64,000 nucleotides of DNA from Corallium rubrum (taxonomy: Eukaryota > Cnidaria > Anthozoa > Scleralcyonacea > Coralliidae): NCBI GenBank assembly GCA_964035015.1, contig OZ035998.1, positions 17,725,760 to 17,789,759 of the forward strand, given 5' to 3'. A model generated the notes under the pieces. The model ran no database searches. It had not been told where the DNA came from and was given only the letters and a program-made list of their open reading frames with translations. Below are positions 1,754 through 44,988 of this stretch, in pieces (positions within the stretch are counted from its first letter, which is position 1; each line of letters starts with the position of its first letter). Both the position numbers and the translations under genes were made by a program.

Positions 1754-2686
1754 TCAAGTGAGAGGATATGTTGTGCCACACGTACCTTCGTTTCCTTGTA
1801 CGCATCTCAAGCCTCGTTCCCCATCCTTTCGTTTCATGTAGAGCCGTTCGTCGCTCCCCTGTCTGCCCAGCATACCTTTTTCGCGTAAAATATCCTTTAT
1901 CAACATGTCAAGATCGTACAGTTCTTTTTTTGTAAACTGACACACATTCATAGCGTATCCTGCAACTGTGATGACTCTGCAGTTGGTTGCTTTCATTAGG
2001 TTCTTATCATGCAGTTCTAGGTCTACCAAACTCTCCAGTGTTTTCTGCTTTTCTTTTCTGGTCAATCAGCTTTCCCTGTTCTATCCCCAGGAACTTGTAA
2101 AAATCATCTTTCTTCGGATCCAAAGCTTCTGCTCCTGGTCGTCAATGAATGGGCTGTGTGTTCTCTTCATATGTCGCTCGAAGCCCCATCCTGTTTTCTC
2201 TTGTCTCTTCCAACAACTTTGTTATTTCTCCTTGTAAAAAGCCACACCTTATTCTGATCCATCTGCTTTGTATTTTTCGGACCCCCAATATTCATCTCCA
2301 ATGGCGTTTACTAATTGCTCATCAGTTTCCGCAGCACATTGATCACATTCTTTGGTATTCCCATCCATTCATACACCATGAGCATCCAATCGTGATGTAC
2401 TTTATCATAAGCTATTTGGTAATCATAGAAGGCCACTGCCAAATCCATTTTGTGCTCCCTCACTTCGTCCATTATGCATTTGTTAACAATTGAGTAGTTG
2501 GTCAACAGTACCAAGCACGCCTTCTGTGGCTCCTCGCTGTCTTTCGTCCCACATGTCATTTTGTATTGCATGATCTTTCATGTATCTTCCCAACAAGCCT
2601 GTGAACAGCTGATATGACGTATTGAGACACGTTATTGGTCTGTACTCTTTTTTTAAACGACAATACTCAATCTTTGGCAGAAACAT
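1754..2686 (-). pseudogene. Non-LTR retrotransposon reverse transcriptase remnant
   Basis: Three consecutive minus-strand frames together give pieces of one reverse transcriptase. The first (2686-2483) carries the KEYRPITCLN finger motif and a GTVDQLL segment. The second (2571-2311, another frame) carries the palm-like AYDKVHHDWM followed by EWMGIP. The third (2065-1754) resembles the region after the palm, with LGRQGSDERLYMKRKDG. Frameshifts and stops separate the pieces and the catalytic YxDD block is not visible, so the copy is dead. The style suggests a LINE; the clade cannot be assigned from what remains. Confidence 0.7.
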
Positions 2687-2704
2687 TGTCCTGCCAAATG
2701 TCAG

Positions 2705-2705
<1 letters not shown>

Positions 2706-2777
<72 letters not shown>
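2706..2777. repeat. (ATT)n microsatellite
   Basis: Uninterrupted trinucleotide run of about 70 bp just upstream of the reverse transcriptase remnant. Poly-Tyr and poly-Ile frames across it are artefacts. Confidence 0.97.
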
Positions 2778-2778
<1 letters not shown>

Positions 2779-3179
2779 TTGATTTATCTCAGCTTATTAT
2801 TTGACAATACCTGGAAACACTTGCTTCTGTCACATCCTGCAATTGTCTGGCCTTGAATGTTCTATCTTTTCATCAGTTTGTATCTTTAGATTCCAAAGTA
2901 TCTTCACTTCTGCATTGAGACATTATCAATAAAACTTTCTACGTTGTGGTTTTTCTACTTCTTCTTCTATTGTTATTGTCATTTCCTTATATTTGTTCTT
3001 ATTTGTTGTGTTGTTTTGTGTTGTAGTGTTCGCCAGTGCTTTGTTTTTACAAAAAACTGTCGTTACGAAAAGTGTATAGGTCCATTGGGGTTATAACTAT
3101 CGCTAAAACAGATCATTGGGTGCGGTTATGACTAAATGAGAACGAAATTTAAATTCCGCCTTAAGGTTGGAAGTACTTT
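2778..3179. other. No gene recognised
   Basis: T-rich sequence with no convincing open frame or repeat. It separates the LINE remnant from the GTTCC-rich block. Confidence 0.5.
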
Positions 3180-3545
3180 GTTTTGATTTTAGGAACGCAA
3201 TCTAGAGGAACTTTTTGTACCGCTTAGATTTCGGTACTCGCTGCGTTTGTTCCTCTTTGAAAAGGAACATATTCAAGCGGAACGTTTCGTTCTCATTTGA
3301 ATTCGGAAAGGTTTTGTTCCGATGTTCAAAATAGGAACGGGCCTCAATTAAGAACAAATTGTTCCGCATGAGCTAGAGCGCTTTAAATAGGACCTCTTTG
3401 TTCCTTTTTCTAAAGGTTATTTCGTTCCCTTTATTCGTTCTCATAGGAACAAGTAGTTCCGCATGAGCTAGACCGCTTTAAATTGGTCCTCTTTGTTTTT
3501 ATGTTAAACGTTATTTCGTTCCGTTTGTTTTTTTCCATACGAACA
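3180..3545. repeat. GTTCC/GGAAC-rich block with a tandem duplication
   Basis: About a dozen GTTCC or GGAAC pentamers occur in both orientations within roughly 350 bp. A unit of about 107 bp beginning GTTCCGCATGAGCTAGA is present twice (near 3361 and 3467) with a few differences. The block directly abuts the TAGCCAG array and so may be the outer part of the recombinase element, for instance a binding-site cluster. Function is inference. Confidence 0.6.
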
Positions 3546-3589
3546 AGTAAAGAAGTTAATATAGTCCAAAGCACCGGCAACAATAGTTC

Positions 3590-4186
3590 AGTAGCCAGTC
3601 GTTCTTATAGCGTAGCCAGGTGGTAGCCAGTCAATTTAACAAGGTTTTTATCTAGTAGCCAGGTAGCCATTACCCTAGCCAGGGAGGCTTTCAATTACCA
3701 TGCGTAATAACGTTTGCTTTTTCTCTATTCAGTTGTTTTGGATATCAATAAAGATATAGATCTAATTTGCATATAGGTTTAATATATTCTGACCGACTGG
3801 CTACGTAGCTCGGTAGCCAGTAGTTTACAGGGCGTAGCCAGGTAGTCAGTCAATTTAACAAGGTTTTCATCTAGTAGCCAGGTAGCCAGTTGTTCTGAAT
3901 ATAAATTAAGATATAGATCTAATTTGCATATAGGATTAATATATTCTGACCGACTGGCTACCGTAGCTCGGTAGCCAGTAGTTTACAGGGCGTAGCCAGG
4001 TGGTAGCCAGTCAATTTAACAAGGTTTTCATCTAGTAGCCAGGTAGCCAGTTGTTCTGAATATCAATAAAGATATAGATCTAATTTACATATAGGATTAA
4101 TATATTCAGACCGACTGGCTACCGTACCTCGGTAGCCAGTAGTTTACAGGGCATAGCCAGGTGGTAGCCACTCAATTTAACAAGGT
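3590..4186 (+). repeat. TAGCCAG iteron array, left arm, outer block
   Basis: About three and a half units of roughly 160 bp. Each unit has two TAGCCAG copies before CAATTTAACAAGG, two more after CATCTAG, an AT-rich stretch with ATAGATCTAATTT, and then the palindrome ACTGGCTACCG-TAGCT-CGGTAGCCAGT. Spacings of 158 and 161 bp were measured between successive GGCGTAGCCA starts. The outermost unit near 3590-3830 is the most diverged. The same units run in the opposite direction on the other side of the recombinase gene. Confidence 0.9.
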
Positions 4187-4189
4187 TTT

Positions 4190-4640
4190 TATCGAGTACA
4201 CCTGTTGTTTTGAATATCAATAAAGTTATAGATGTAATTTGCGGCATAATATATATATAACCTCGTTCTATCGGAAATCCAGATCTTACTACGTCTAAAC
4301 TGAATTTTGAAGCGGAATTTTTTTAAAGAACGAAGCATACACATACAAATACAACAGGATATATCACATCTGTACATCGTTCTCATAAAATAAAAATAGA
4401 AGAGTAAAGAGAATGGTCGATGAGTTATATTATGTTGTATGCATGTGTATGCCTCGTTCTTTTAAAACCCCCGCTTATATATACTTTAATACATATACTT
4501 TGACCCATGCCTCGTTTACCTTAGAATTTTGCACCAGCAATTTATTAAGTATAACGGGAATAATATATCGTGATGTTTACACGATAACAATTCTTAAATC
4601 GGTGTTCTAATAGTCTAAGTTAGTTTACGTCTCGTTGATA
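4190..4640 (+). repeat. Spacer module of left arm
   Basis: This non-iteron module interrupts the left array. It contains an internal inverted repeat, AAAGAACGAAGCATACAC near 4324 and GTGTATGCCTCGTTCTTT near 4445, about 100 bp apart. A 65-codon open frame (4413-4610) lies in it. The module recurs in reverse orientation at 8075-8530, and the 198 bp of the small frame are identical by eye in both arms. Whether the frame is translated is unknown; near-identity of the arms explains its conservation without selection. Confidence 0.85.
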
Positions 4641-4644
4641 AGAA

Positions 4645-5047
4645 CTTAATATATTCTGACCGACTGGCTACCGTAGTTCAGTAGCCAGTGGTCTACAGGG
4701 CGCAGCCAGGTGGTAGCCAGTCAATTTAACAAGGTTTTCATCTAGTAGCCAGGTAGCCAGTTGTTCTGAATATCAATTAAGTTATAGATCTAATTTACAT
4801 ATACAGTTAATATATTCTGATCGACTGGCTACCGTAGCTCGGTAGCCAGTAGTTTACAGGGCGTAGCCAGGTGGTAGCCAGTCAATTTAACAAGGTTTTC
4901 ATCTAGTAGCCAGGTAGCCAGTTGTTCTGAATATCAATAAAGATATAGATCTAATTTGCATATAGGGTTAATATATTCTGACTGACTGGCTACCGTAGCT
5001 CGTTAGCCAGTGGTTTACAGGGCGTAGCCAGGTGGTAGTCACTCAAT
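4645..5047 (+). repeat. TAGCCAG iteron array, left arm, inner block
   Basis: About two and a half further units in the same orientation as the outer block. They include two palindromic CTGGCTACCG/CGGTAGCCAG cores, near 4665 and 4825, plus a third near 4985 with one arm altered (CGTTAGCCAG). Confidence 0.9.
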
Positions 5048-5320
5048 TTAAGAAGGTTTTTATCTAGTACACCTGTTGTTTTGAATATCAATAAAGTTAC
5101 AGATGTAATTTGCGGCATAATATATATGTAACCACGTTCTATCGGAAATCCAGATCTTACTACGTCTAAACTGAATTTTGAAGCGGAATTTTTTAAAGAA
5201 CGAGGCATACGCATACAAATACAACAATATATATCACATTTGTACATCGTTCTCATAAAATAAAAATAGAACAGTGAAGGGAATTGTTCGTGAGTTATAT
5301 TATGCTGTATGCATGGAACA
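5048..5320 (+). repeat. Truncated second spacer module
   Basis: A second copy of the spacer module, matching roughly 4190-4440 with scattered substitutions. It stops near GCTGTATGCATGG, where unrelated sequence leads to the 3' end of the recombinase gene. Only the first half is present. Confidence 0.8.
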
Positions 5321-5479
5321 GAGGGCCTCATCCTACACATTGGCCCTCTTTAACTGATATATTTTCTTCGTTTTATTAGAAATTCTACATAATATGTTTA
5401 CTATATTATACACTCAGTATACATGTTATGTGAAAAGTTGCACGTATCAAGTTGTTTGTGTTTTGCGAAAGCAGCACCG

Positions 5480-7144
5480 TTAAATTAATTTCAAAGCTAC
5501 TGCTCTCATTCTCAACGTTCTTGCTTCTCTGCTCTCTTGGAAATGAAAAGCTGGATGACGGACGATGGCAGACCAGCGTAGTCCAAACTTCTCGATACCT
5601 CTTCTTATGTAATTGTCTTCTTGCTTGGTAAACCTCACCGGTTCCTTTCGTCCCAGGTGTCTGGCTATTTTGTTTACAGAATCGACTTCACTTTGACGTT
5701 GTTCATACGCGTTTTCTTTTGGCAAAGGCTCATCTTTTAACTGCTCGACGCAACTGTCCATTGCTTCACCTTCGACTCCCCGCAGCTTGTCCATGCATGT
5801 CTTACCTTTCATGGCGACATCCCGCGAACGTAACTTCTGGTAATGTACTCGGGCAACGTTCGAACTGTGTTTCTGATCTTCCAAAACCATCTTCTGTTCT
5901 TCCACGTCTAACACAATGGCACTTTCGGTCTCTATTATCTGTCGGTATCTTGTCGGGTGAATGTACTTTCCTATGGCCTGAAACACCAACACGCTCAATA
6001 GTTCAGTCAATTTCTGAAATTGCGCACCGTTTCGGTTTACGAGCAAGTACTCGCATTGCGGGAGAAGAAGAGGTCTGACAAAACGAACATAGTCGTCGAC
6101 TACTCCCAAGCTGACTTCGTCAAAATGCAAAGAATCGAAACCGTACTTTTTAGCGGTTTTAAAAATTGTTTGGTCTACCATCCCACCGTTGTGCTTCGCA
6201 TTTTCAAACATAGTGACTGTCAAATGTTGATATGTCATCGGACGACAACCCTTTATTTTAACAAACATAAATACTGCGAGGAATCGCGTGGTAAATGTTA
6301 AGTCGGTTGACGTAAAAAAATTCGACATTTTTCTGCACTCTTCTAAAATCTGCTTGTAGCGCTCGATGTGAAATGGAACGACTCTCTGCAACTCGGCTAA
6401 CGAAGCCCAGCTTCTTTTCGATTCCAGTGTCTCAATGTCCAAATCTGTCGTCCAGTGCGATCGCATCTGCTTTGCCAGACACTTCTTAGCTCGCTTGATG
6501 TACACTTCAGTCACCGAGAAGTTCTGAAGGACAGGGCCAGGTGGAGAGTTAAACTTGCGGAAGTCGAGTAGGTCACAAATGCTTGTTACGTAGCCGAGTC
6601 GGCCCGACTGACCCATCTGCCAGGTGTCTTCGAGGTAGTCGAGAAAATCCGTTAGAAATTTAGAAGAGCACAGAAAATAGTCGATAAGTTGCACGGTGGA
6701 CAACACGGTCGACTCCTCCTCGCCCGATTCTCCGCAACAAAACGTGAGAAATTTAAGAGCTCGCGTGGCCGAAATTTCTGCTTGTTTTGACGTTTTCCCT
6801 CTCCCCGTTGTACTTTGCAACCATAGCGAAAGAGAACGAGCGAATTCGTTATCCGATGAGCAACACGGCAGTGTCAGTTTGCTTTTCGTCGACGTAACTT
6901 CAATTACAGGCTTCACATTGTCGGTGAGAATTGTTGTTTTTTCATCGAAGTACGCGTACCAAGGATGTTTTACTTTGACGTGCTTTCGACAGCCTCTTCG
7001 ACTGGCAAATCCTGGATGGTCGCAGTTAGGAACAGGGCAATGATTAAGGCCTTCTTCGTCTCTCTGTAGATGTAACCGTCTAGGCTTCTTGAATGCCCCG
7101 TCGAGAGACTTCCAATCGATCGTACGGTTATTTCGACGAGGCAT
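5480..7144 (-). CDS. Tyrosine recombinase with C2H2 finger and SANT/Myb tail (Crypton-like)
   Basis: An uninterrupted 554-residue frame that starts at an ATG (MPRRNNRTID). Near the N-terminus is a C2H2 finger: C36, C41, H55, H60. Residues about 100-240 are helical and look like a core-binding (SAM-like) domain. Residues about 280-440 fit a tyrosine-recombinase catalytic domain: R301 in KGCRPMTYQHL, H396-x-x-R399 in IHPTRYRQ, H426 in KHSSNVA and the candidate nucleophile Y435 in VHYQKL. Residues 503-553 fit a SANT/Myb DNA-binding domain. Family knowledge: Crypton-type recombinases cut and rejoin DNA through a covalent phosphotyrosine and need no target duplication. The gene lies between inverted arrays of palindromic sites, its probable substrates (inference). 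All catalytic residues are present, so it may be active. A domesticated gene is the alternative. Confidence 0.75.
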   Translation of the reverse strand: MPRRNNRTIDWKSLDGAFKKPRRLHLQRDEEGLNHCPVPNCDHPGFASRRGCRKHVKVKHPWYAYFDEKTTILTDNVKPVIEVTSTKSKLTLPCCSSDNEFARSLSLWLQSTTGRGKTSKQAEISATRALKFLTFCCGESGEEESTVLSTVQLIDYFLCSSKFLTDFLDYLEDTWQMGQSGRLGYVTSICDLLDFRKFNSPPGPVLQNFSVTEVYIKRAKKCLAKQMRSHWTTDLDIETLESKRSWASLAELQRVVPFHIERYKQILEECRKMSNFFTSTDLTFTTRFLAVFMFVKIKGCRPMTYQHLTVTMFENAKHNGGMVDQTIFKTAKKYGFDSLHFDEVSLGVVDDYVRFVRPLLLPQCEYLLVNRNGAQFQKLTELLSVLVFQAIGKYIHPTRYRQIIETESAIVLDVEEQKMVLEDQKHSSNVARVHYQKLRSRDVAMKGKTCMDKLRGVEGEAMDSCVEQLKDEPLPKENAYEQRQSEVDSVNKIARHLGRKEPVRFTKQEDNYIRRGIEKFGLRWSAIVRHPAFHFQESREARTLRMRAVALKLI

Positions 7145-7441
7145 CCAACGGCCACGGTAAACTTCAAGAACTACTGCATGAACGGCGATGGTTAGTTGTG
7201 TTTACTTCTATCTTCAATATATCTCGCATATTTATACTCTGCTATGCATCTTGCTGTTCTTCCTTTGGGATTAGATAGATCGAGAAATTGAAAAGGCGTT
7301 CCTTTTGCTGGCTAACGTTGGGTTCATTACATACACTTTACTTCAGATTATTGAATCGGAACAAAACGTGTCAAAATTGCCGTTTTTGTTTGACAAAAGA
7401 CGGTTATATTTAATGCGAGAGAATATATAATATATATGTAA

Positions 7442-8072
7442 ATGAGATCTAACTTAAATTAATTGATATTCAGAACAACTGGCTACCTGGCTACTAGATG
7501 AAAACCTTGTTAAATTGACTGGCTACCACCTGGCTACGCCCTGTAAACTACTGGCTACTGAACTACGGTAGCCAGTCGGTCAGAATATATTAACTCTATA
7601 TGTAAATTAGATCTATATCTTTATTGATATTCAGAACAACTGGCTACCTGGCTACTAGATGAAAACCTTGTTAAATTGTCTGGCTACCACCTGGCTACGC
7701 CCTGTAGACCACTGGCTACTGAACTACGGTAGCCAGTCGGTCAGAATATATTAACCCTATATGTAAATTAGATCTATAACTTAGTTGATATTCAGAACAA
7801 CTGGCTACCTGGCTACTAGATGAAAACCTTGTTAAATTGACTGGCTACCACCTGGCTACGCTATGCGAACGACTGGCTACTGAACTACGGTAGCCAGTCG
7901 GTCAGAATATATTAACTCTATATGTAAATTAGATCTATATCTTTATTGATATTCAGAACAACTGGCTACCTGGCTACTAGATGAAAACCTTGTTAAATTG
8001 ACTGGCTACCACCTGGCTACGCCCTGTAGACCACTGGCTACTGAACTACGGTAGCCAGTCGGTCAGAATATA
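7442..8072 (-). repeat. TAGCCAG iteron array, right arm, inner block
   Basis: Four units of about 160 bp in the reverse orientation to the left arm. Each reads GGCTACCTGGCTACTAG, then CCTTGTTAAATTG, then two more CTGGCTAC copies and an ACTGGCTACTGA...CGGTAGCCAGT core. The core differs slightly from the left-arm core: its left half is ACTGGCTACTG rather than ACTGGCTACCG. The array begins about 300 bp upstream of the recombinase start codon, so it may also act on that promoter. Confidence 0.9.
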
Positions 8073-8074
8073 TT

Positions 8075-8530
8075 AAGTTCTTATCAACGAGACGTAAACT
8101 AACTTAGACTATTAGAACACCGATTTAAGAATTGTTATCGTGTAAACATCACGATATATTATTCCCGTTATACTTAATAAATTGCTGGTGCAAAATTCTA
8201 AGGTAAACGAGGCATGGGTCAAAGTATATGTATTAAAGTATATATAAGCGGGGGTTTTAAAAGAACGAGGCATACACATGCATACAACATAATATAACTC
8301 ATCGACCATTCTCTTTACTCTTCTATTTTTATTTTATGAGAACGATGTACAGATGTGATATATCCTGTTGTATTTGTATGTGTATGCCTCGTTCTTTAAA
8401 AAAATTCCGCTTCAAAATTCAGTTTAGACGTAGTAAGATCTGCATTTCCGATGGAACGAGGTTATATATATATATTATGCCGCAAATTACATCTATAACT
8501 TTATTGATATTCAAAACAACAGGTGTACTA
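8075..8530 (-). repeat. Spacer module of right arm
   Basis: Reverse complement of the left spacer module (4190-4640). The 198-bp small frame here (8309-8112) is identical by eye to the left one. Differences lie mostly in the outer half, for example GATCTGCATTTCC here against the complement of GGAAATCCAGATC there. Such identity points to recent duplication or gene conversion between the arms. Confidence 0.85.
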
Positions 8531-8534
8531 GATA

Positions 8535-8940
8535 AAAACCTTGTTAAATTGAGTGGCTACCACCTGGCTACGCCCTGTAAACTACTGGCTACCGGGCTAC
8601 GATAGCCAGTCGGTCAGAATATATTAATCCTATATGCAAATTAGATCTATATCTTTATTGATATTCAGAACAACTGGCTACCTGGCTACTAGATGAAAAC
8701 CTTGTTAAATTGACTGGCTACCACCTGGCTACGCCCTGTAAACCACTGGCTACTGAACTACGGTAGCCAGTCGGTCAGAATGTATTAACTCTATATGTAA
8801 ATTAGATCTATATCTTTATTGATATTCAGAACAACTGGCTACCTGGCTACTAGATGAAAACCTTGTTAAATTGACTGGCTACCACCTGGCTACGCCCTGT
8901 AAACCACTGGCTACTGAACTACGGTAGCCAGTCGGTATAA
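8535..8940 (-). repeat. TAGCCAG iteron array, right arm, outer block
   Basis: About two and a half units in the same orientation as the inner right block. They end near CGGTAGCCAGTCGG at 8936, after which a diverged spacer module begins. Confidence 0.9.
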
Positions 8941-9300
8941 GAATATATTACGTTCTTATGAATGAGACGTAAGCTAAGTTAACCTTTTATAGAACACCGA
9001 TGATAAGAATTGTTACTGTGTCGACATCACCACATTATTCCCGTTACTAATAAACTGCCGGTGCAAAATTTTAATCTAAATGTGGCATGTTTCAAAGTAT
9101 GTATTAAAGTATATATAAGCGGGGTTTTTAAAAGAACGAGGCATATACACATGCATATACAACATAATATAACACCATTCTCTTCGCTCTTTTATTTTTT
9201 ATGACAACGATGGATGCAGATTTGGAACATCCTGTAGTATTTGTGTGTATGCCTCGTTCTATAAGAAATTCCGCTTCAAAATTCAGTGGGGGCTTATATA
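8941..9300 (-). repeat. Diverged copy of the spacer module
   Basis: Recognisable by GAGACGTAAGCTAAGTTAA, TATATAAGCGGGG and AAAAGAACGAGGCATA in the order seen in the right spacer, but with many substitutions and small deletions. It marks the outer end of the right arm and looks older than the other copies. Confidence 0.75.
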
Positions 9301-9614
9301 CATCGTTTGTTTAAAGTTATAATCGACTTTAAATCCTTTAACTCGAAGGTTTCTTAAAGAGTGAGAAACTGTTAAATTCAATACTAATTAACAGCATCAT
9401 TTTAAAAAAACACACAATAAAGGAGATGTTATCCAGTGTAGCTAGATAGACACCTTACATTAAACCGCTTGCTTTTCGCTAATGCTTTCTTAAAGCAAAC
9501 ACTAGAATGTTAACTTGCTGTTCAACGTTATAAGTTATAAGATTGGTTGGATTTTTGTTCATAATTAAGAAATATACAAGAAAAACTGAAAAAAACCCTG
9601 AAAAAAACTTCATT
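9301..9614. other. No gene recognised; 3' flank of the acidic gene
   Basis: AT-rich sequence between the right arm and the stop codon of the acidic coding region. No repeat unit or clear signal was recognised. Confidence 0.5.
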
Positions 9615-9695
9615 TCACCACGGTCTCCATCGTTTTATCTTTGTCCAGTAAGTCTGGGAACTTAAGTGAGGGCGACGGGGTAAGCCTTGACTGTC

Positions 9696-9727
<32 letters not shown>

Positions 9728-10823
9728 CTTGTTCTTCTTCTTCGTCTTCTTCCTGTTCTTTGCTTTTTCTCTCCTCTTTACCTTCGCCGGCGCCTTTCTT
9801 TGGTTTTTCAAGTGCCTGGTAAACGGGACACGAACATGGGAGGACCTGAACTTGCACTGTCCGTCGAACTCGCTGAACGAATTCATATGTTTCCGGGTGT
9901 TTTTCTACCAAGGTGTCTAAATCAAACACATCACGTCGCTGGTCGATAACGAGCATCCATGCGTCTACTTCTGGTTCGGCTTGCGTCCAAAATTCTCTTT
10001 CTTTTTTATCCCTTTTCATCGCCGCCTTCCGTCTCCGTTCAATGAACGAGATTGCGTGGACGCGCGTCAGGTTTTGGACGTTAAAGTTTTCTCTTTGCAG
10101 TTCCTTTACCTTTGCTAAATATTTTGCATCGTTCAGAACCCAACAGGAAGGCGTCAAAATGCGCCCAAGGAAGGATTCTTGGCTAGCGCTGCGCTCCTCA
10201 TTCTCCACAGTATCCTCACAATTGGTATCTTCGGGAGAGCACTGCTCGACGACATTTTCCAGTGACTTTGAGGTGTAGTTTTCGCGTATTGCTTTTGATG
10301 GTGGTTCTTCGGAAAAGGTTGTACGTTCGTCGTCATTTTGTTGAATGTCTCTTGCTGCGGAAGTCGAAGGTCCTTCTCCAAGTTGTTGATTGGCAAATTT
10401 GCTTGCTCTGTCTTCTTCAACAACGGACGGTATGCAGCGACGCTCTTCCTGGTCACTTTGCGCTGAGTAGTCCCCGTCTGTTGGCGAGTTGTTAGCAGGT
10501 AACGTTTTCTGGCGTTGCGCACGTTGTGGTGTTTTTCGATCGAGTCGAAACCGGTCCACGGAAGGCACGGGGGACGGAATCAATGGCATATCGTCGTCTG
10601 CTTCCTCAACTTCGCTTTCTAACTGACATGGGGTGTTTTCTCCGTCAGAAAAGTACTGCAGGTCACGGTAAGGATTGGTTTCCCTTGAACGCCGTTTTCG
10701 GGTAATACGTTGTCGATTAAACTCCAACTCGAAACGTCTGTGGATTACGTTTTCTTCCCGTGGCATGTACTCACTTGTACTGGTATCCTCTTCTTCCAAG
10801 TCAGTGTGGCTAATCTCGCTCAT
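9615..10823 (-). CDS. Acidic low-complexity protein downstream of the SF3 helicase
   Basis: A 402-residue frame from the ATG at 10823 to a stop at 9615. The N-terminal half is Ser/Glu/Asp-rich and probably disordered, with a basic KRRSR cluster near residue 43. Residues about 215-335 look folded: a helical segment with a basic ERRRKAAMKRDKK stretch, then a region containing PCSCPVYQAL. The tail holds a run of about eleven glutamates and ends in aromatic-rich sequence. The function is not recognised. The frame is open upstream of the ATG and is the same frame as the helicase: only 38 sense codons separate its ATG from the helicase TAA. It may therefore be the C-terminal part of a longer protein made by readthrough or splicing, or a separate product. 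Being same-strand with the helicase and recombinase suggests one element. Confidence 0.6.
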
Positions 10824-10937
10824 CCGTGAGGGTACAAAGAGTTTGATTCCCTCGTTATTCTCGATGATGTGGTCTTCAGCGTTCTCAGGTTCGTACCATA
10901 ATTCTTCTGCATCTATCAGAGCGCGATGGGCGTTAAT

Positions 10938-12747
10938 TTAGTTAGCCATCCATGCCACACAATCCATCGCATGATCGTAAATCCACCGATCAACTCCTGG
11001 CAGGGTTTGGGGCAGTGATGACGTCTCGAAGACTGCGATGCGCCGTTTAACATTTTCGTCCTCCCGACCAAAATCTGGAACGTGGTTTGTTGTGATGTAG
11101 AAGGGGCTGTTATTCATTACACATCTAGGCGATCCGTGCTTCACGGCCGTCACCATCCAACCTCCCTGCAAAATGGTTTTGGCGAGATCTGACTGCAAGG
11201 TACCCTGCGACCACTCGTCGACGAATATCAGCTGTGTTTCCTCCGTGATCATCGCGGCCGAAAATTGCCGCTCGTTGGTAATAGATGCGATTTTGCCGCT
11301 GGGGATAATTCGATGAAATATGCACGCCCACGATGTCTTCCCGGAATCCTTGGGTCCCGCGACTACCAGTTTTCTCACTTTGTGTGGCATCTTGGAAGCG
11401 ATAAGACATTGGAAAAATTTGTTGACAAAGTTCACTCTCACCACTTGGTCTTGGAATGAGTTAAGGATTCCTTCTTCGAAGAATCTCGGTTCCGGCGCTG
11501 TAGTGCAATCGTATGGCACGAACGCTTTAGGTGACAGCAGGCCACGCTTTGTTTCGGGAATAGGACGGTAAACAAATCTTCGGGTTGTTATTTCAAAGCA
11601 CCATCCCTTTGACACTTCGATGAGATTGACGTCAAATTCAATTTGGGGAATAATTTCGCACGCTGGATGTGAAAGGACTTTCAGCAGGACTGGGAAATGC
11701 TTAAACACCATACCACGTATGGGCTCGTTGGTCAGTAGTTTATTTAGGTAGCTTCCAACGTCCATCATCTTTAGAAACGCCATACTCGCTTCGGCAGGTT
11801 TCGCGTAGATGTCTCCGCGATAGAGGGCGTGATCGCATATCTTTAGTATGGCTTGGATTTTGTTCAGCGTCGCTGGAATTTCGTCTGTGGTTGAAGATAA
11901 ACAAGGTTTATCTATTCCCACCGTGACCATGGAATCCATTTCGACCGTCAACCCATCCGACTGCAAAAGAGGTACTACCGCGTTTAGTTTATCGCAGAAT
12001 TCGACTCTGTTGACGACAACCAGACGACATGGCACCGTTGGGTAATGAGTGGGAGTACTTGATGGTCCTTGTACATCGCTGTCTTCAGCGGAACTTGTAC
12101 GGGAACATTCCGCCAGGCAGTAGGTGTTAGAGGTTTTCAGCATTTCCATGACGAGAGGATTGTTGTGGTCTTTGAGCACTTGGAAGAGCTGTCTGGCGGC
12201 TGTTTCCATAACTTTGTCCGTCGATATCCTGGTTATGATGGGTCGTATAGTCGGTTCGGTGTCTTGGTTGTGCAAAGCAGCGTAAAGCGTTTTCTCGTTA
12301 CATGCCTGTGTCACTCGGTAGGCGATAAAGTACGCCACCCCAGGATACGCTTTTTCCTCATGGCTACTGCTATCGCCGCTTTTTGATTTTTTGGCATTGG
12401 AGGAGAGAGCTGTGATACAGGAAAGAAAAAACTGTACTCCTCTTACTCTACAGAGCACTTCGTCCAGCTCAAGACGCTTGGATGAAATCTGATTTATTGC
12501 AAGTTGAATATCATCCTCATTAACTCTCCACACAGCTCGACAGCCGACAGCTCGTAGGTCATTGTCGATCTACAAACGTTCAGAAAGTAACACAATTGAA
12601 AGAAGCTGACAATGTGAGTTCCCGTCGACCAACTGATAAAATCAAAGTAAACAGATATACGTGACTTACCAATTTTAGAATGTTTGCTCGAAGAGAATTT
12701 TGTACTCGTTTACAACCGAGTTCTTTACGAGGACGCCGAGGGGGCAT
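10938..12747 (-). CDS. Superfamily 3 replicative helicase (spliced, two exons)
   Basis: Predicted join of 12747-12670 and 12569-10938, giving 569 residues. Exon 1 starts at an ATG and encodes 26 residues rich in Arg/Lys. It ends TTG|GTAAGT, and exon 2 follows TTTGTAG in the same phase. Without exon 1 there is no ATG at the beginning of the long frame. Numbering on the spliced protein: Walker A GPKDSGKTS at 431-439, Walker B LIFVDE at 473-478, a VKHGSP loop (motif B') near 502-507, sensor motif SPFYITTN at 514-521 and an arginine pair at 535-536. This order is diagnostic of SF3 AAA+ helicases, which form hexamers that unwind replication origins of small DNA viruses and some plasmids. The spacing is closest in style to the papillomavirus E1/parvovirus NS1 branch. 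The N-terminal 400 residues contain no HUH nuclease motif that I can see. The protein could initiate replication at the TAGCCAG arrays (inference). Confidence 0.75.
12570..12669 (-). other. Predicted intron of the SF3 helicase gene
   Basis: A 100-bp intron with donor GGTAAGTCAC and acceptor CGTTTGTAG. The join keeps the frame at phase 0. An intron implies nuclear transcription by the host and argues against recent bacterial origin or contamination. Confidence 0.65.
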
Positions 12748-12898
12748 CTTTCTTTTTAAAACCTTCCTGTTGTCAAATTTCGAAGAGTAGCTCTGGAGAA
12801 AAGGTTTGCTTAATCAACGTCCAAGCGCATTTATACAATTCTACTAGACGTTATTTGCATATAGACGAATCGCCAAAGGGAACGAAATTTTCGACTTT

Positions 12899-12907
12899 GG
12901 TTGTTGC

Positions 12908-12982
<75 letters not shown>

Positions 12983-13026
12983 AGTTGTTGTTGTTGTTGT
13001 TGTCGTTGTCGTTGTCGTTGTCGTCG

Positions 13027-13099
<73 letters not shown>

Positions 13100-13120
13100 C
13101 GTCGTCGTCGTCGTCGTCGT
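12899..13120. repeat. (GTT)n / (GTC)n microsatellite
   Basis: About 220 bp of trinucleotide repeat with GTC variants clustered near 13003-13024 and at the right end. It lies about 150 bp upstream of helicase exon 1. Long poly-Val, poly-Gln and poly-Thr frames across it are artefacts. Confidence 0.97.
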
Positions 13121-13430
13121 GATATTAATAGTCCCGAAATACAAGGTGGGCGACAGCTCACACCCTTTCCACGCAAGGAGAGTGGCTCAGAAGCTACCAA
13201 AATTTGCTAGCGTTTACATAGTTAAGACGCTACAGACTACTCTGACTGTGCAATCCCTGACGTAACTTTTTATATTATTAATGATCCAACTCCTTATACG
13301 CATATTTTGCGACACTAAGAATACAGCTATGACACACACGCAATGTTTTTGTGGGAGAAGGGTTCGGGGAGAAGTAATCCGAATGGTGAAAATTGTGGTC
13401 AGCCTCATCCCAACAACTCAACGTTACGGT
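13121..13430. other. No gene recognised
   Basis: Unique-looking sequence between the microsatellite and the minisatellite. No domain-bearing frame was seen. Confidence 0.5.
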
Positions 13431-13433
13431 CTT

Positions 13434-13503
13434 AGTTGTCCTATAGGGGTAATAATCCCCAAGTAGGACTCTAGTCTAATGTCCTAGGGGTGGTAGTTCC
13501 CCA
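13434..13503. repeat. Palindromic minisatellite, left part
   Basis: Imperfect units alternate AGGGGT and TCCCCA, with GTCC and GGAC at their edges (for example GTCCTAGGGGTGGTAGTTCCCC). The array continues on the far side of the LTR element at 18725, so the retrotransposon landed inside it. Confidence 0.75.
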
Positions 13504-13755
13504 TGTCGGAAATTCGCCTCCCAAATCTCAAACACTTCACAAAGGTGTTATTATTTATTAAAGGTTCACAAAATTCACAAGTTATTCACGGTTCACTTCA
13601 CAAACTTCCCTGTTGTTTTCACTTTTCCAACTGAATCTCTCGCTGACCATGCTCTCGTTCCAGTACTTTTACTCGTCCAAAAATAATTACGAATAAATTA
13701 AAGTTAATTATAGATTACATTAGCATTATCACGAAAATAGCAACAGTTTCCGACA
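13504..13755 (-). repeat. 3' LTR of the BEL/Pao element
   Basis: 252 bp with 9-bp terminal inverted repeats TGTCGGAAA/TTTCCGACA. It is the downstream LTR with respect to the minus-strand coding direction. Confidence 0.95.
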
Positions 13756-13765
13756 CTCTCCCCCC
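13756..13765 (-). promoter_or_regulatory. Polypurine tract
   Basis: The minus strand reads GGGGGGAGAG directly before the 3' LTR. This is the expected place and composition for the plus-strand priming site of reverse transcription. Confidence 0.75.
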
Positions 13766-13878
13766 ATATAGCTCTTTCAGAGATATATGTTTTCAAAGGA
13801 AACTAAGTGCTTCAATGTTGTGGTAATTTGTAAACAGTAAAATGTAAACAAGAGTTTTATGATAGTTCTGTCTATGCA

Positions 13879-16449
13879 TCATTCAATGTTTTTATCATCG
13901 CTGCCCAGGAAGTTGTGGAATTTCTCATCTCGTTGCACTTGGTTTAACCACTTGGCGGCGGCAGTGAAGGTTTTTGCGTTGTCTGAATATCTCTTTTCAG
14001 GTCTGCCTTTTCTAGCGATCAACCGCTTGAGGGTGGAAAGAAATTCTTCGGTTTCCATGCTCGTAGTTAGCTCTAGGTAGAGAGCCCGCATTAAACTACA
14101 TGCGTAGAGGATTATGTACGCCTTTCCTTCTTTCTTCTTGGTCACGCGATATCTTATAGGGCCAGCGAAGTCAACTCCAACTACCTGGAAGGGACGGTTT
14201 CCGTCTGTCCTGTCCACTAGTAGGTTTCCCGGCGGCGGTCTATCAACATGTTTAATTTGAAATCGTCGACAACCATGACATCCTTTTACGACTTTTCTTG
14301 CTGCTTGTCTCAGTCTCGGAACCCAGACTTTTTCTCGAATTTTCGCCATTGTCAGGCCTACTCCCCCGTGCAAGGTGCGTTGGTGAGCGTCTTCGACTAA
14401 TTTTGTAGTGTAAAGGTGGCTGTCGGGTAAATATATAGGATACTGACCTTGAAGACGACCCTTGCATACCAGGACACCTTCTTCATTCCTCTGTACACCA
14501 AGGCGTTGTCTATCTTCACTTCCCTTTTCGTCTTGGGTTGACTGGGCTCGCTTCACCCAAAAGGTGTGTTGGTCATTGATCTCTTGCGTTGTCAAAGGTC
14601 CCGACCGTCTCTTTTCCTTGGTCACTCGACAATTATGCGTAAACCGAGAGATCCATGCGTTGATTCGAATGGCTTTCCTTAGGGAAAACTTTGACAGAAT
14701 CTTGTCAAGTCGGTCGGTCGATTCTATGGCAGCGTTGAAAACTTCTCTTGTTGCCTTGGTTTCTGTTTCACTTTCACGAGTTGCGATCGTCACAATATCT
14801 TGAGGCCACTCGTCTTGGTTAATAAGCCACGACGGTCCGTTCCACCATAGTTGGTTGTCAGTGACTCTTCCTCCCCTACTTCCCAAATCTGCAGGGTTGT
14901 CCTGGGTTGGGACATGACGCCAGGTGATATCTGGGTGGGCTTGGATTTTTCTCACTCGATTTGCTACGAATTGCTTGTATTCTCCTCCGCCTTTTAGCCA
15001 CTGGAGCGCTACCGTGCTGTCCAGCCATCCATAGCATCTCTTGACAGGCATTTCGTCGAGCGCTTGTCGTACATTCGTTACTAAATTCGTTGCCATGTGA
15101 GCGGAAACGAGTTCTAGACGCGGGATTGTCAAATCTTGCTTGGCTAGTCTTGCTCGGGCAGCGACTAATCCCACGTTAATACCGGTACTTTGTTTCACAA
15201 TTGCATAGACGGTCGCACAAACTCCTTTGGCACTTGCATCTCCAAACGTGTGGAGCTCGATTTCTTGGATGGCTTCGCGTTGGGTTGTCAAAGTCCTTGG
15301 AACAGTGACTGTTTTAGGCAACTCTCTCACCCATCGACTGTATTCTGCAGCCAGTGGTTTTGGTAACGGCGCATCCCACGGTATCTTTGCCTTGCAAGCC
15401 TCTCTATAAATGGTCTTTCCTTTGAGATTCACGGGTGTCACGAGGCCCAGCGGATCGTAGACTCTTGCCAGGTTACATAAGAGCTCTCTCTTAGTCACAG
15501 TATCTTTCATATGGGGTATCACGAAACTGAACTGATCCTTTTGCTTGTCCCACGAAAGCCCGAGGAGACTGGACTCTGGATCATTTGATGCACCGAGCTC
15601 CTGCTTAGCAAACGTATCTTCCATTTCTACTTTGGGTTCTTCTCCTTCCAGTTCGGGGGCATTGGAGTGCCACTTATGCAATGTAAACTTTGCATCTTGA
15701 AAGATCTTGATGGCTCCTTCTTTCAACTCTTTTGCACTTGCCACGGTTGGTTTTCCACTCAGTAGGTCATCTACATAGAGGCTTCTACGCAATTCAGCTA
15801 CCAGCTCTGGTTCACGGGCTTCCCAGGATTCCAGGTGACATTCTACCACTCCGCCTAGTAGAAAGGGTGAACATACCAGACCAAACAATGCTCGGGTGAA
15901 TCTCAATGTTTCTACCTTGGACTGTTCGTTAGGTTTCCAATGGAATCTAAGGGAATCTCTCTCTTCTTTCTTGATTCGAACTTGAAGAAACGCCTGTTTA
16001 ATATCTCCTGTGAGGGTCACTGGGTGGAAGCGCATGCGCACAAGGACATTCCACAGGCGATTCTGAAGTGGAGGACCAGCGTATAAGCAATCATTCAGGC
16101 TTGGTGCTTGTGGGGTTTCTCGGGCTGACGCATCGTAGACAACACGTAGCTTGGTTGATTCTGCTTCCATTCGTACCACAGGTTTATGAGGGATATAGAA
16201 TTCTTTTCCTGTTGGTGGTTCCATTGCCATCTCAACTATCCCTTCTGACCTTTGCTGCTCGATCACCTCAGCATACATCTCTGTTTTGTCTATCCGTTGA
16301 AGCTTGTTTTGGAGTTGTGTCAGCCGACGTAGGCTTCCAGCCTTGTTGCTTGGTAGAGGAGGGTGGCTTCCTTTCCAAAGTAAGCCCGTTTCATACCATC
16401 CCTCTGGATCTCGTACCAGTTGCTCACGAAATTCTGCATGCACTGCCTG
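13879..16449 (-). pseudogene. pol: BEL/Pao pol: reverse transcriptase, RNase H, truncated integrase
   Basis: The frame continues directly from 16797-16450 after an in-frame UGA (16452-16450). Reverse transcriptase is marked by TGDIKQAFLQV, ALFGLVCSPF and the catalytic LYVDDLLSG. RNase H follows with FGDASAKG, the RLELVSAH glutamate and the GWLDSTVALQWL aspartate. The integrase zinc-binding region has the H-x-H and CHGC pattern, and the core shows the first two catalytic aspartates in VGVDFAGPI and RYSDNAKTF. The frame ends about 30 residues later, before the catalytic glutamate and the usual C-terminal domain. Only about 120 bp remain before the LTR, so the 3' end of pol has been deleted. This copy cannot integrate itself. 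Confidence 0.9.
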
Positions 16450-16797
16450 TCACTGCACGTCCAATCGACATAGATCTTCATAATCCCTCTGGGTTGATTG
16501 CGTTAAGAGCATTCTCGAATGGTCGAATTCCTTTCCAGGAGACATTATTGTCCATCCTAATTTAGTCTTTTCTTCTACTGGTTCTCCAGGAAGTCCAACA
16601 CGGGGTGCTTCTGAGGTCTTGATGAAGGCATAGGCACTTGCACCTAGAATTAGATGCACTGGCAGGAATGGTTTAGGGTCATTGTCCTCCATATGTACTC
16701 CCTGAAGGTGTTTACATGAACCAATGAGTTTCTGGTAGTCTGGATTTTCAATCATCAGCAGTTTCCCTCGGTCGACCCTTGTCACATTAACTTTCAT
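16450..16797 (-). CDS. BEL/Pao gag-pol, protease to reverse-transcriptase linker
   Basis: A 115-residue frame that overlaps the gag-protease frame by four bases (ATGA), shifted by -1. It contains the HLILGASAYAF and GEPVEEKTKLGWTIMSPG segments typical of the stretch between protease and reverse transcriptase in this family. It ends in a UGA that is in frame with the pol frame (context CAG-UGA-CAG). In intact BEL/Pao elements gag and pol are usually one frame, so both interruptions are either mutations or a recoding strategy. Confidence 0.7.
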   Translation of the reverse strand: MKVNVTRVDRGKLLMIENPDYQKLIGSCKHLQGVHMEDNDPKPFLPVHLILGASAYAFIKTSEAPRVGLPGEPVEEKTKLGWTIMSPGKEFDHSRMLLTQSTQRDYEDLCRLDVQ

Positions 16798-18323
16798 CTG
16801 ATAGCTCTGATCTGTAGCTTCCTAGAAATAGCAACTTCACGAGTAGTTGAGCCCAACATCATCTCTATTCGCCGAACTTCTCTGGACTGTGGTCGTTTTG
16901 GAAGTTTGTCCAGCAGTGCAGCTGAAGCATAGGAGCTTCCTGCCCCAGTATCAAGTAACGCCCGACATATCACTCCTTCCACATTCACGTTAACAACAGG
17001 ATAAACAACTTGGCTTGTGCCCCCCTCGGTGGCTGTCTTCAAGCTCTCTTTCACGGTGCAGATTGAGGTGTGGTGTTTTTGGTTGCATTTCTGACAAAGT
17101 ATTGTACTTCTGCATTCACTAGCTCGGTGTTTGGGGCCCGTGCAGTTGAAGCAAAGTTTCTTTTTAGCTAGAATCCCTTTCCTTTCATCTACGCCGACCA
17201 CACGCGTACACTCACGGGAACTGTGGTTTACATCATCACAGTACACGCATGAGCGTTTTCGAACATTCACATTAAAAAGACTTTCTCTGTTCTCCCTCGA
17301 TTCTTTCCGCTTCATTTTGTCTTTGTCATTGCCACTCTCTTTATCACCGGGGTTTATGTCTCTCCATTGCTTTAGTGCTTGAACAAGATGAGGTAAATCC
17401 CACTCTTGCCAGCTTTCATGCCCTCTGACTAGATCACTCTTTATTCCTGGTAACTTGTCAAGCACACTTCTCGTCATTCCATTCACTCGCTCTAATTTCC
17501 CAAGGGTTTCGAGAGACTGTACGTTAAACAAAAGAGTTTTATAAAAGTTATTTACCTCACAACGGTCAGCGCCCTTCACGACTGGCAACTCAAGAATGTT
17601 CTGGACATAAGCGTTAACAATTTCACTCGGTTTACCATACTCTCCTTTAAGGATGTTCTTCGCTCTCTCATATCCCTCGACGCTAAGCGGTAATCCATCG
17701 ATGTCTGTTCTTACTTTCGGTTTGACAAGCTCTTTCAAATATGCAAATTTCGTGACAGGCGAAAGATCAGCGTTGTCAATCTCGGCGACGAACTTGTTCC
17801 AAAAGGATAACCAATTTGCACATTTCCCATCGAATTGTGTAATGGAAAGTTTTGGCAGTTTTGTTGACAAAGTTTTCTTTACCTGGTTCTGTTGGCCAGT
17901 TTCCAACGATTTCTGAAATCGTAGTTGTTGCTCCAATAGCTCACGTTCACGACTCATTTTCAGCTCATGTTTCGCTTTCTCGAGTGCCATTTCTTGTTTG
18001 TCTGACTCAGCTTTTTCCAATGATCGATTTTCTCTTGCAACTTTGTCTTTCAAGCGTCGTAATTCCAGTGCTTGCTCGTCGGCTATTTTCAACTGCTCGT
18101 CGACTATTTTGACCCAGTCTTGCACTTGCTCTTCAGATTCCTCCTTACTGAATTTGAGTTCTACAATGTCTTCCTTCAAAGTATGACTCGCTTCGATTTT
18201 GGCTGTTATCGAAGCTTCGTGTCTGGTTATAACTTCGAGGTTTCCGGTTTCAATCACTCCATTACTCTTACTCACAGTAAATTTTAGTGTTCTAAGCTTT
18301 CCATCTTGTAGTTTAGTCTCCAT
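16794..18323 (-). CDS. gag: BEL/Pao gag with zinc knuckles and aspartic protease
   Basis: 509 residues starting at METKLQDGKL. Residues about 60-140 form a charged coiled coil. The middle (ITQFDGKCANWLSFWNKF) matches the BEL-type capsid-like region. Three zinc knuckles follow, near residues 360-420: CVYCDDVNHSSREC and CFNCTGPKHRASEC as CX2CX4HX4C, and CQKCNQKHHTSIC as CX2CX3HX4C. The retropepsin motif LLDTGAGSSYASA follows at about residue 460. The frame ends inside the protease region at a stop overlapping the next frame. Gag packages element RNA, and the protease would process the polyprotein. Confidence 0.9.
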   Translation of the reverse strand: METKLQDGKLRTLKFTVSKSNGVIETGNLEVITRHEASITAKIEASHTLKEDIVELKFSKEESEEQVQDWVKIVDEQLKIADEQALELRRLKDKVARENRSLEKAESDKQEMALEKAKHELKMSRERELLEQQLRFQKSLETGQQNQVKKTLSTKLPKLSITQFDGKCANWLSFWNKFVAEIDNADLSPVTKFAYLKELVKPKVRTDIDGLPLSVEGYERAKNILKGEYGKPSEIVNAYVQNILELPVVKGADRCEVNNFYKTLLFNVQSLETLGKLERVNGMTRSVLDKLPGIKSDLVRGHESWQEWDLPHLVQALKQWRDINPGDKESGNDKDKMKRKESRENRESLFNVNVRKRSCVYCDDVNHSSRECTRVVGVDERKGILAKKKLCFNCTGPKHRASECRSTILCQKCNQKHHTSICTVKESLKTATEGGTSQVVYPVVNVNVEGVICRALLDTGAGSSYASAALLDKLPKRPQSREVRRIEMMLGSTTREVAISRKLQIRAIR

Positions 18324-18451
18324 GGTTTCCCTTGATCGATTGTAATGTCTCTCGGTAATCTCAGTTTTTGGACAGTTTGTCGCTTTTCTTTGTTTGGCTT
18401 TGATCGGTCAGGTTCTTGCTCTTGTTCGAGCCACAATAATTCACTTAAATC

Positions 18452-18469
18452 CCGTCGTCGGAGGTGCCA
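18452..18469 (-). promoter_or_regulatory. Candidate tRNA primer-binding site
   Basis: On the minus strand, three bases after the 5' LTR, the sequence TGGCACCTCCGACGACGG begins with the TGG expected to pair with a tRNA 3' CCA. The tRNA species is not determined. Confidence 0.6.
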
Positions 18470-18472
18470 CTG

Positions 18473-18724
18473 TGTCGGAAATTCGCCTCCCAAATCTCAA
18501 ACACTTCACAAAGGTGTTATTATTTATTAAAGGTTCACAAAATTCACAAGTTATTCACGGTTCACTTCACAAACTTCCCTGTTGTTTTCACTTTTCCAAC
18601 TGAATCTCTCACTGACCATGCTCTCGTTCCAGTACTTTTACTCGTCCAAAAATAATTACGAATAAATTAAAGTTAATTATAGATTACATTAGCATTATCA
18701 CGAAAATAGCAACAGTTTCCGACA
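18473..18724 (-). repeat. 5' LTR of the BEL/Pao element
   Basis: 252 bp, one substitution different from the other LTR. It would contain the element promoter for the minus-strand transcript. Confidence 0.95.
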
Positions 18725-18815
18725 CCCATGTTGGACTTTGCCCAAGGGGTCGTAGTTCCCCAAGGGCATCCTACATGTCCAAGGGGTAATAGATCCCCGA
18801 GTTGGACATTCCTTA
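18725..18815. repeat. Palindromic minisatellite, right part
   Basis: Continues the pre-insertion array with TTGGACTTTGCCCAAGGGG, TAGTTCCCCAAGGG and GTCCAAGGGGTAATAG units. Confidence 0.7.
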
Positions 18816-19951
18816 CTTTCGACTAATTCTTATAATTACATCAATTCGTATGAGTCTATGGGGTTGAGGGTGACCTTTGGGAGCACTTCATCCCCAAACC
18901 GAATCTTTATTAAAATAGTAATGCTATATACAAAATTGATTCATATATTAAGATAATAAAGTGTCCACGATAAGTCATTTGACGCAGTTCGCATGACAGA
19001 CTCTATGTAGGAGTAGCGTTTTTGTGAAAACTTTTTAACCAACATATACAGTTTCTTTTGTTGGTTTGTTTGTTTGTTTTGGGGGGTTTTTTGTTGGGTT
19101 TTTTTTTGTTTTTGTTTTTTTTTTGGTTTTTTTTGTTTTAAATAAAGATGTGCAAAATCGTTGAATGGGTGGGATGGGAGGTAATTTGTTCGCTTTACCG
19201 AGCTTACGCATAGCTTATTGTGTAAAGCTCTTGATCACAATGGTTTCATATGGTGCGTGTTGAAGTCTTATAAGGACGACTAGGTGAAATTTGATTGGTA
19301 GTTTTTCCCACGAAAAAGAGGAAATACCGTTTCCATTGGCAGACTATTCATTGCCTTGTGTTTTGCACGTGCGAAGTCATGCTGGTCGGAAAGACTGACC
19401 TTTATACCCGTCTGGGGTTTATTTGAGTTGCTGACAGCTGAGAAATTGATCTTTGTCCGCATCCCTACCGATTTACAAGGCCTTTACGCAGCTTTACATT
19501 TTGCTTAGACGTTTTTGTCTCATTAACTTAAATTTATATTTGCTATAGGCGTATATAAATTGGCTTTATTTTATTGTTATTGTTATTATTCATTGTTTAT
19601 TATTACTTGTAAGTGCGTTACATTTTCTTAAGTTAGTAGTTCTTTTTATTTGGCATGGCTCACATATTCTTTAATTTTCTAAGGATTATTACCACAATAT
19701 GCAACGCAAATCTATGCATGATATATAGTTTACTTATTTTTCACCTGGCTCGGTTTTCTTTGTTTTTTTTCGGGGAATATATTCAATAGCCCCTGGCAAA
19801 AAAATAGATTAATATTCCCCTCTAATATTCCCCTCTAAGGCCTCTACCTACCTCGCTATAATATTCTCCTCTAATCTTCCCGTCTAATATACCCCGCACC
19901 ACTCTTTATCTTATGAATTCCTGTCAACCTCGCCATGTGAAAAATAAGTAC
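18816..19951. other. No gene recognised; low-complexity T/G tract inside
   Basis: AT-rich non-coding sequence. A T/G-only low-complexity tract lies at about 19059-19137, and short repeats of TAATATTCCCCTC lie near 19810-19890. No exon with splice sites was recognised. It is probably upstream flank or an intron of the receptor gene. Confidence 0.5.
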
Positions 19952-43645: not shown

Positions 43646-44988
43646 AGGGGCGGATCTAGAGGGGTGCGAGCGTGGCTTGAGCCACGGTCAGATTTTCCTA
43701 ATTATTCCAAATTAAATAATATAATTGATATTTCAAAAATAAAAAACTATCAATAACAAAAGGATAGTTGACGTAAGAACGACATTAGCCACCGTAAAAA
43801 TACTAAACCGATTGTCAAAATAGCAGCGGATTTTCGCATCTTTGACAATCAGTTGCACCGCAATCGGTCTCCAGGTAGTTAGAAGTCCGAGAATGTGGCG
43901 AGAGCGGCCGAAAAAGTTACCGAACGTGCTACGAATTCTCTGAAGAAATTGGAGAACACTTCTGTTAAATTCAGCCACGGTCAGCGGAGCGATCTGCTAA
44001 ATTCAGCCACGGTCAGCGGACTATTAAGGGGTGCAAACCAATCAGGGAGCCTGAATAGTTTGGCTGAATTTGGCGGGAGCCACGGTCAGTCACCCTTGCC
44101 ATATCTTGTTACAATTTTTATTGCGAAATAATGCAATCAAATCTAGTCGGCTCCGGTCGGTGGTGCACGTCGGTCAGTCTGTCTTCACCGAGTTCTTTAG
44201 AGTGATATTAAAGAATGGCTGCGCGTATGGAGGGACAATGATTGTGCCTGTGACAGATAGTCGAAATACTAGATGATAAGTTCAGAAGAAAATTAAGGAA
44301 GAGATGTTGGTTAGTTTGGTGACCTTTGGTTTCTTTATTTATAGTTCAGACGCTAGTTATTAATACTGTAGGACTGTGTGGTGTTTATACTAAACTATAT
44401 AAATCTTTAAAGCATTGATCAAATTGAAGAACAAACATGAGATCAAACCGAGAGCCGCGACCTCTCTCTCTCATTACATTGTTTATAATTCTCATCGACT
44501 GAAACACAGCATTTCTATCATGGTTCAACTTTGAAATATTAGACAGATTTAGCAAACAGGACGTGGACGTCAAGAGGACGTCACTTGACCGGTGAAGACT
44601 GGGTCGAGGACGCCGTCGTGTTGTGAATAAAATCAGATTTAGCAAAATATCTGGGACGCTAGACAACGTTGTTTTTTGTTCTAGAACACTCTTTATCTAA
44701 TAATCCATGGACTATGTAGAAAGAAGCTTTGTAGATGTTTTTCTGCCATTGATTTGCCCAGTATTACATGTAAGACAAATTTTCTAACGCAGATATCAGT
44801 AGGAGAGATAATTGTCAGGTCGCTACTATTTTGAGTGTGTCTGTATTAATTCAGATGTTCTCGAAATATCATTTACCACATTATCGACAGAACTTCTCTT
44901 TTGTCCATTAGCTTAGTGTGATTATTACTTATGTTTTTATTTAAATAAATCCACGATTTCTATTTTCTGCTGTCGTCATGTTGTCGTG

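Follow-up and report, generated by a model that had tools for sequence, protein, structure and literature searches.

A 64,000-nucleotide stretch of the Corallium rubrum genome (the window; C8:17725760-17789759) carries, between about 2980 and about 12900, what is best read as a Crypton-like tyrosine recombinase (YR) transposon with a papillomavirus-type replication module. The data support a YR gene, a gene for a superfamily 3 (SF3) helicase with an acidic tail, and arrays of a short heptamer being parts of one mobile element with YR-type ends. We consider it probable that this is a YR DNA transposon that is autonomous and brings its own replication initiator, comparable to an integrating plasmid but resident in an animal genome.

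Ends and empty sites of the element

The ends were placed by comparison across families of copies in the host assembly (474 Mb, 312 contigs). The left end reads TTGT-(CCT/CGT)-CATTTCC and the right end GACTTTGG-TTG. In the window, the left TTGT core copy, common with the target, lies at 2976-2979 (plus strand) and the element body starts at about 2980. In all 11 left ends compared (the window and 10 fetched copies) TTGT either adjoins CATTTCC or is separated from it by CCT/CGT, while the DNA outside differs; three further left ends, which had been chosen by a TTGT-containing string, were excluded from this count. At the right end (12872-12900, plus strand) 28 of 28 bp are identical to six family B loci (L027, L031, L033, L035, L036 and L040), despite diverged neighbouring DNA. 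All eight right ends outside the right-left strings described below, including that of the window, run into TTG and then, immediately or after a few bases, into (TTG)n; in the window this target microsatellite, which includes the right TTG core copy, occupies 12901-13120 (plus strand), outside the element. Left flanks are TTG-rich in many copies, though not in all. The element is thus bounded by 3-4 bp TTG(T) direct repeats, mostly at (TTG)n microsatellites. Terminal inverted repeats were not found, either at a minimum of 60 nt across 2500-14000 or at a minimum of 14 nt in each end region separately.

Two paralogous sites on the same contig lack 2976-12900 and carry (TTG)n there. Their flanks are 89% and 83% identical to those of the element on the left and 95% and 80% on the right. 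As the YR and the helicase are missing from both sites together, the element is a single insertion. The ends together with the empty sites make YR-type integration, presumably through short TTG homology, well supported. An earlier note, made from the window's letters, had proposed a single YR-integrated element at 3180 to 12747; its unity holds and that span lies within the element, whose true ends are at about 2976-2980 and about 12900. The left flank is itself locally duplicated, in a segmental duplication of three or more members (C8 at 17.48, 17.73 and 18.23 Mb).

An exact join of right end to left end occurs five times in the assembly, and a reversed control string not at all. One such string, at C1:79902901, is flanked on either side by element body and sits between two helicase-YR pairs. 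Together with the gene content, this junction leads us to infer a circular, helicase-replicated stage. Tandem integration would, however, yield a sequence identical to the C1:79902901 junction, and the other four strings, with little or no right body, are weaker evidence. By eye, the DNA beside some left ends at right-left strings (L046, L047 and L039) resembles the right end of the element over roughly 16-60 bp; these stretches may be remnants, or target sites of a second kind.

Genes of the element

Three minus-strand open reading frames (ORFs) of 573, 543 and 440 amino acids encode the YR, the helicase and the acidic region. The YR ORF spans 5480-7201; its first ATG is at 7144, giving a gene at 5480-7144 with the frame open upstream to 7201. 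In an alignment of 48 sequences including that of the window (ORF numbering), R320 and H415-xx-R418 are invariant and H445 and Y454 are conserved in at least 90%, confirming the complete R-HxxR-H-Y set noticed earlier, and HPTR is present in 117 of 120 homologues among the matches listed. The protein comprises an N-terminal C2H2-like stretch (by eye), the YR core and a C-terminal Myb domain. Structure prediction and fold search gave a tyrosine-recombinase fold with matches to Xer and Cre, and a TRF-like Myb domain. DUF3504 was not matched by the window YR (E up to 1) or by four relatives (E up to 0.1), and two YRs had no match in PHROGs. Named close homologues of the element's proteins are from octocorals (Dendronephthya, Paramuricea).

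The helicase ORF (10938-12569) is preceded by a short first exon (12747-12670, 26 codons). Residues 1-26 of the Dendronephthya homologue P0011 match 12747-12667 and residues 26-571 match 12569-10950, placing the borders of a 100-bp GT..AG intron at 12570-12669; the spliced structure suggested in the earlier note therefore fits. Exon 2 (9615-12569) contains the SF3 helicase (10941-12569), an in-frame stop (10938-10940) and, in the same frame, the acidic part (9615-10937). The acidic region had been taken for a separate coding region. All three frames are present, but among the helicase homologues (161 found, the best 120 of them listed) the long ones, of about 860-930 amino acids, span helicase and acidic tail in one protein. 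The stop that separates the two in the window is absent from all three other same-family copies checked, one of which (C46) has its helicase frame broken at another point, and family B has a single open helicase-acidic frame of 911 amino acids in six of six fetched stretches with a whole helicase. An arrangement of three separate genes was accordingly rejected: as read from the sequences, a single gene encodes helicase and acidic region, interrupted in the window copy by an in-frame stop.

The structure model of the helicase has an SF3 fold with a Walker A motif, as had been proposed, and places this motor C-terminal of an alpha/beta N-terminal domain and ahead of the acidic tail. The N-terminal model has a beta-alpha-beta-beta-alpha order; the full-length model gave one alignment to Rep68, over 15-569 with a root-mean-square deviation of 15.6. 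A profile search with the N-terminal domain returned no PDB match there and six weak matches elsewhere, and for two relatives PHROGs gave weak primase-family matches in the helicase part. A helicase search with P0071 as query found 42 matches, including Clytia; among the matches listed, no contig beyond one of 632645 nt was newly found, by eye, to hold both helicase and YR. Helicase relatives outside anthozoans are P0242 and P0248, from the hydrozoan Clytia and a eukprot entry which we take to be Aurelia.

No other ORF above 150 amino acids was listed within 2980-12900, a list that spliced short genes would escape. A family search of the three ORFs found no capsid or packaging ATPase family and no reverse transcriptase family such as a DIRS/Ngaro assignment would call for, and the element has no polymerase ORF. 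The lack of capsid, packaging ATPase and polymerase remarked on earlier thus stands.

These gene contents bear on whether the element is the capsid-less remnant of a polinton-like or papilloma-like virus that survives integrated. Its SF3 helicase is of viral type, and polinton-like viruses with an SF3 helicase or a YR are described in the portion consulted of PMC4642659. Against such an origin, neither the family A nor the family B element whose ORFs were listed, one per family, showed a further large gene, and the near-identical copies described below fit transposition. Pattern scans of IMG/VR viral contigs returned 1, 6, 22 and 4 stretches, none of which was confirmed as a relative, and viral contigs were rejected as a source of relatives. 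We regard a viral remnant as unlikely; capsid loss could be ancient, so that this alternative concerns the origin of the element and not its present mode.

Heptamer arrays flank the recombinase gene

The window contains 79 exact copies of TAGCCAG/CTGGCTA, where about 2.2 per strand are expected from base composition. Seventy-two lie in two arms flanking the YR gene, two between the arms and five elsewhere. The left array (3592-5069, plus strand) holds 33 exact heptamers (27 plus, 6 minus) with six inverted pairs, five of 25 bp and one of 24 bp; the right array (7479-8931, minus strand), inverted relative to the left, holds 39 (32 minus, 7 plus) with seven inverted pairs, all of 25 bp. In total 12 of 13 pairs measure 25 bp and one 24 bp. 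Heptamers sit in 161-bp tandem units, a full unit combining an inverted pair with four direct heptamers spaced at steps of 21, 11, 32 and 8. Non-array spacers interrupt the arrays at about 4200-4645 and 8077-8520. A second, partial spacer copy follows the left array at 5070-5315 (plus strand; 5189-5315 is 90% identical to 4319-4445), and a diverged further copy, recognised by eye, probably lies at the outer edge of the right arm (8941-9290, minus strand). Between the left end and the arrays lies a terminal region (2980-3591, plus strand) with GTTCC/GGAAC-rich imperfect repeats at about 3134-3549.

Heptamer arrays are present in each of the four family groups sampled. Family B has TAGCCGG in 142-bp units with steps of 21, 11 and 31, and all 34 inverted pairs in two copies are 25 bp. 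Family C (one stretch) has TAGCCCG at steps of 32, 11, 11 and 10 with no inverted pair in its arrays, and family D (one stretch) mainly TAGCCGG at steps of 21, 11, 32-33 and 8, with nine pairs that have a 10-bp gap. Heptamers are thus family-specific whereas the spacing is largely common. That the spacing recurs while the heptamer changes argues for arrays that are bound and functional.

The large inverted heptamer arrays around the YR gene had been recognised before, and the arms are 96% complementary over 821 nt. The yeast 2-micron plasmid likewise has a YR gene and large inverted repeats. In a 2-micron-like scheme the YR would flip segments at the inverted arrays around its own gene to reach a multicopy state, with genomic integration a by-product. 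The extent of the arms, the inverted pair in each full unit, the two YR copies with extra arrays on contig C98 and the repeated left-arm matches on C285 would suit it. However, the element ends at TTG(T) junctions that lie apart from the arrays, and array copies are duplicated in direct orientation too, as expected of slippage or unequal exchange. We consider this scheme improbable.

Two isolated TAGCCAG copies, 106 bp apart, lie outside the element at 35090 and 35196. In family B (L032-L035), 81-bp-type repeats with TTAGGGTT occur between heptamer arrays, and the YR has a TRF-like Myb domain. The TTAGGGTT repeats were seen in two family B copies, but TTAGGG is absent from the window element and from the sampled stretches of families C and D, so that a telomere link of this domain is not relied on.

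Copies, linkage and module exchange

The assembly contains at least 76 YR and at least 86 helicase matches. For 51 of the 76 YR matches, a helicase on the same strand lies 2.7-9.3 kb to the 5' side (within a 12-kb limit), where uniform placement would predict about 0.08 such pairs. Fifty-three YR matches span residue 26 or earlier to 573, and 49 of these lack a stop. Fifteen family B YR ORFs are mutually 98.1-100% identical, and between loci the identity of longer stretches reaches 99.9% across 5 kb, which points to recent spread.

Between families A and B, the YR has changed at 27 of 221 fourfold sites and the helicase at 99 of 154 (fourfold sites were used, helicase synonymous divergence being saturated). 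The two halves thus have different histories, most simply explained by module exchange. At the left end, positions 2966-3666 share 88.6% identity with one family B copy and 87.6-88.8% with the others. The mosaicism could also be taken to mean that YR and helicase are two independent, often nested elements, as could the 25 of 76 YR matches without a suitably placed helicase. The common order and strand of the other 51, the empty sites lacking both genes together, and left and right ends common to copies all oppose this, and independent insertions were rejected on the linkage and the empty sites as extremely improbable. The earlier note had asked for co-occurrence and for empty sites, naming separate homologues or different insertions as grounds against a single element; the same-strand pairs and the two C8 sites show neither. 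On C98 (about 24.7-47.8 kb, L029-L031) two YR genes 9381 bp apart lie, with one helicase and extra arrays, between a single left and a single right end, which looks like an internal duplication.

Other features of the window

The two paralogous sites (L044 and L045) also lack positions 13281-19565, the alignment jumping from 13280 to about 19565; this segment is a separate insertion from the YR-helicase element. Within it, about 13494-18726 appears by eye to be a BEL/Pao-type long terminal repeat element with ends TGTCGGAAA...TTTCCGACA. A family search identified a DDE_Tnp_4 transposase and a Myb/SANT-like protein, convergently arranged at 44917-46098 and 47125-47928, presumably a Harbinger/PIF-type element.

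Discussion

Cryptons are YR DNA transposons with a proposed circular intermediate; the first described have 4- or 6-bp direct repeats at their ends, and no terminal inverted repeats were reported in animal Cryptons, in the parts of PMC3212892 consulted, whose main text does not contain the word 'helicase'. The element resembles them, as far as they are described there, in its YR with the catalytic tetrad, short direct repeats at its ends and lack of terminal inverted repeats. It differs in its SF3 helicase gene, heptamer arrays and (TTG)n location, and in the lack of a DUF3504 match in its YR (E up to 1). We liken it by mechanism to a Crypton with a replicon, not by YR lineage, and do not file it as a Crypton. 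A YR and an SF3 helicase also occur in integrating polinton-like viruses and virophages, according to the portion seen of PMC4642659, a likeness in an integrating eukaryotic element; this one, however, is about 10 kb long, its ORFs include none for a capsid, packaging ATPase or polymerase, and no relative was confirmed among IMG/VR contigs. As no capsid ORF was found, we do not file it with polinton-like viruses either.

Papillomavirus E1 and polyomavirus T antigen bind the origin and recruit the host replisome. The modelled helicase resembles these and parvovirus NS1 in its SF3 motor C-terminal of an alpha/beta domain, and the short inverted and direct sites could be an origin, whereas its acidic C-terminal tail and the lack of capsid genes set it apart. 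The 2-micron plasmid shares a YR gene, large inverted repeats and, putatively, a circular replicon; here, in contrast, the element is integrated and dispersed, has its own SF3 helicase, and has its end junction outside the inverted arms. Starships, giant fungal YR transposons, are likewise YR-mobilised eukaryotic elements, yet by the partial accounts consulted differ in host kingdom from this element of about 10 kb, which has a helicase and no cargo that we could see.

We propose that the YR would join both ends at TTG(T) into a circle, which it would recombine with TTG in a target. The helicase protein, with its N-terminal domain (perhaps origin-binding), SF3 motor and acidic tail, would bind the heptamer arrays as an origin and recruit the host replisome, as E1 and T antigen do, raising copy number before re-integration. 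It is the more likely putative heptamer reader because families A and B differ in heptamer and strongly in helicase but little in YR. A wider idea is possible, and we hold it tentatively: a class of animal integrating plasmids that would exist as capsid-less circles, with a papillomavirus-type initiator acting on heptamer origin arrays, the YR inserting into TTG microsatellites, which would offer a safe haven, and recombinase and replication modules exchanged between families as in bacterial integrative elements.

To our knowledge, animal DNA transposons are mainly mobilised by cut-and-paste, rolling-circle or self-synthesising enzymes. An animal transposon with YR and SF3 helicase was not described in the literature searched, which included parts of PMC3212892, PMC4642659, PMC11071296, PMC6431247 and PMC10175614, with Repbase and most subscription papers outside it. 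If the proposal is true, a YR element that carries a replicative helicase and origin-like arrays of its own would live in animals much as a plasmid does, and might connect YR transposons with small DNA viruses. Its mechanism would be open to test, given near-identical copies with open frames, a known junction and measurable microsatellite targeting.

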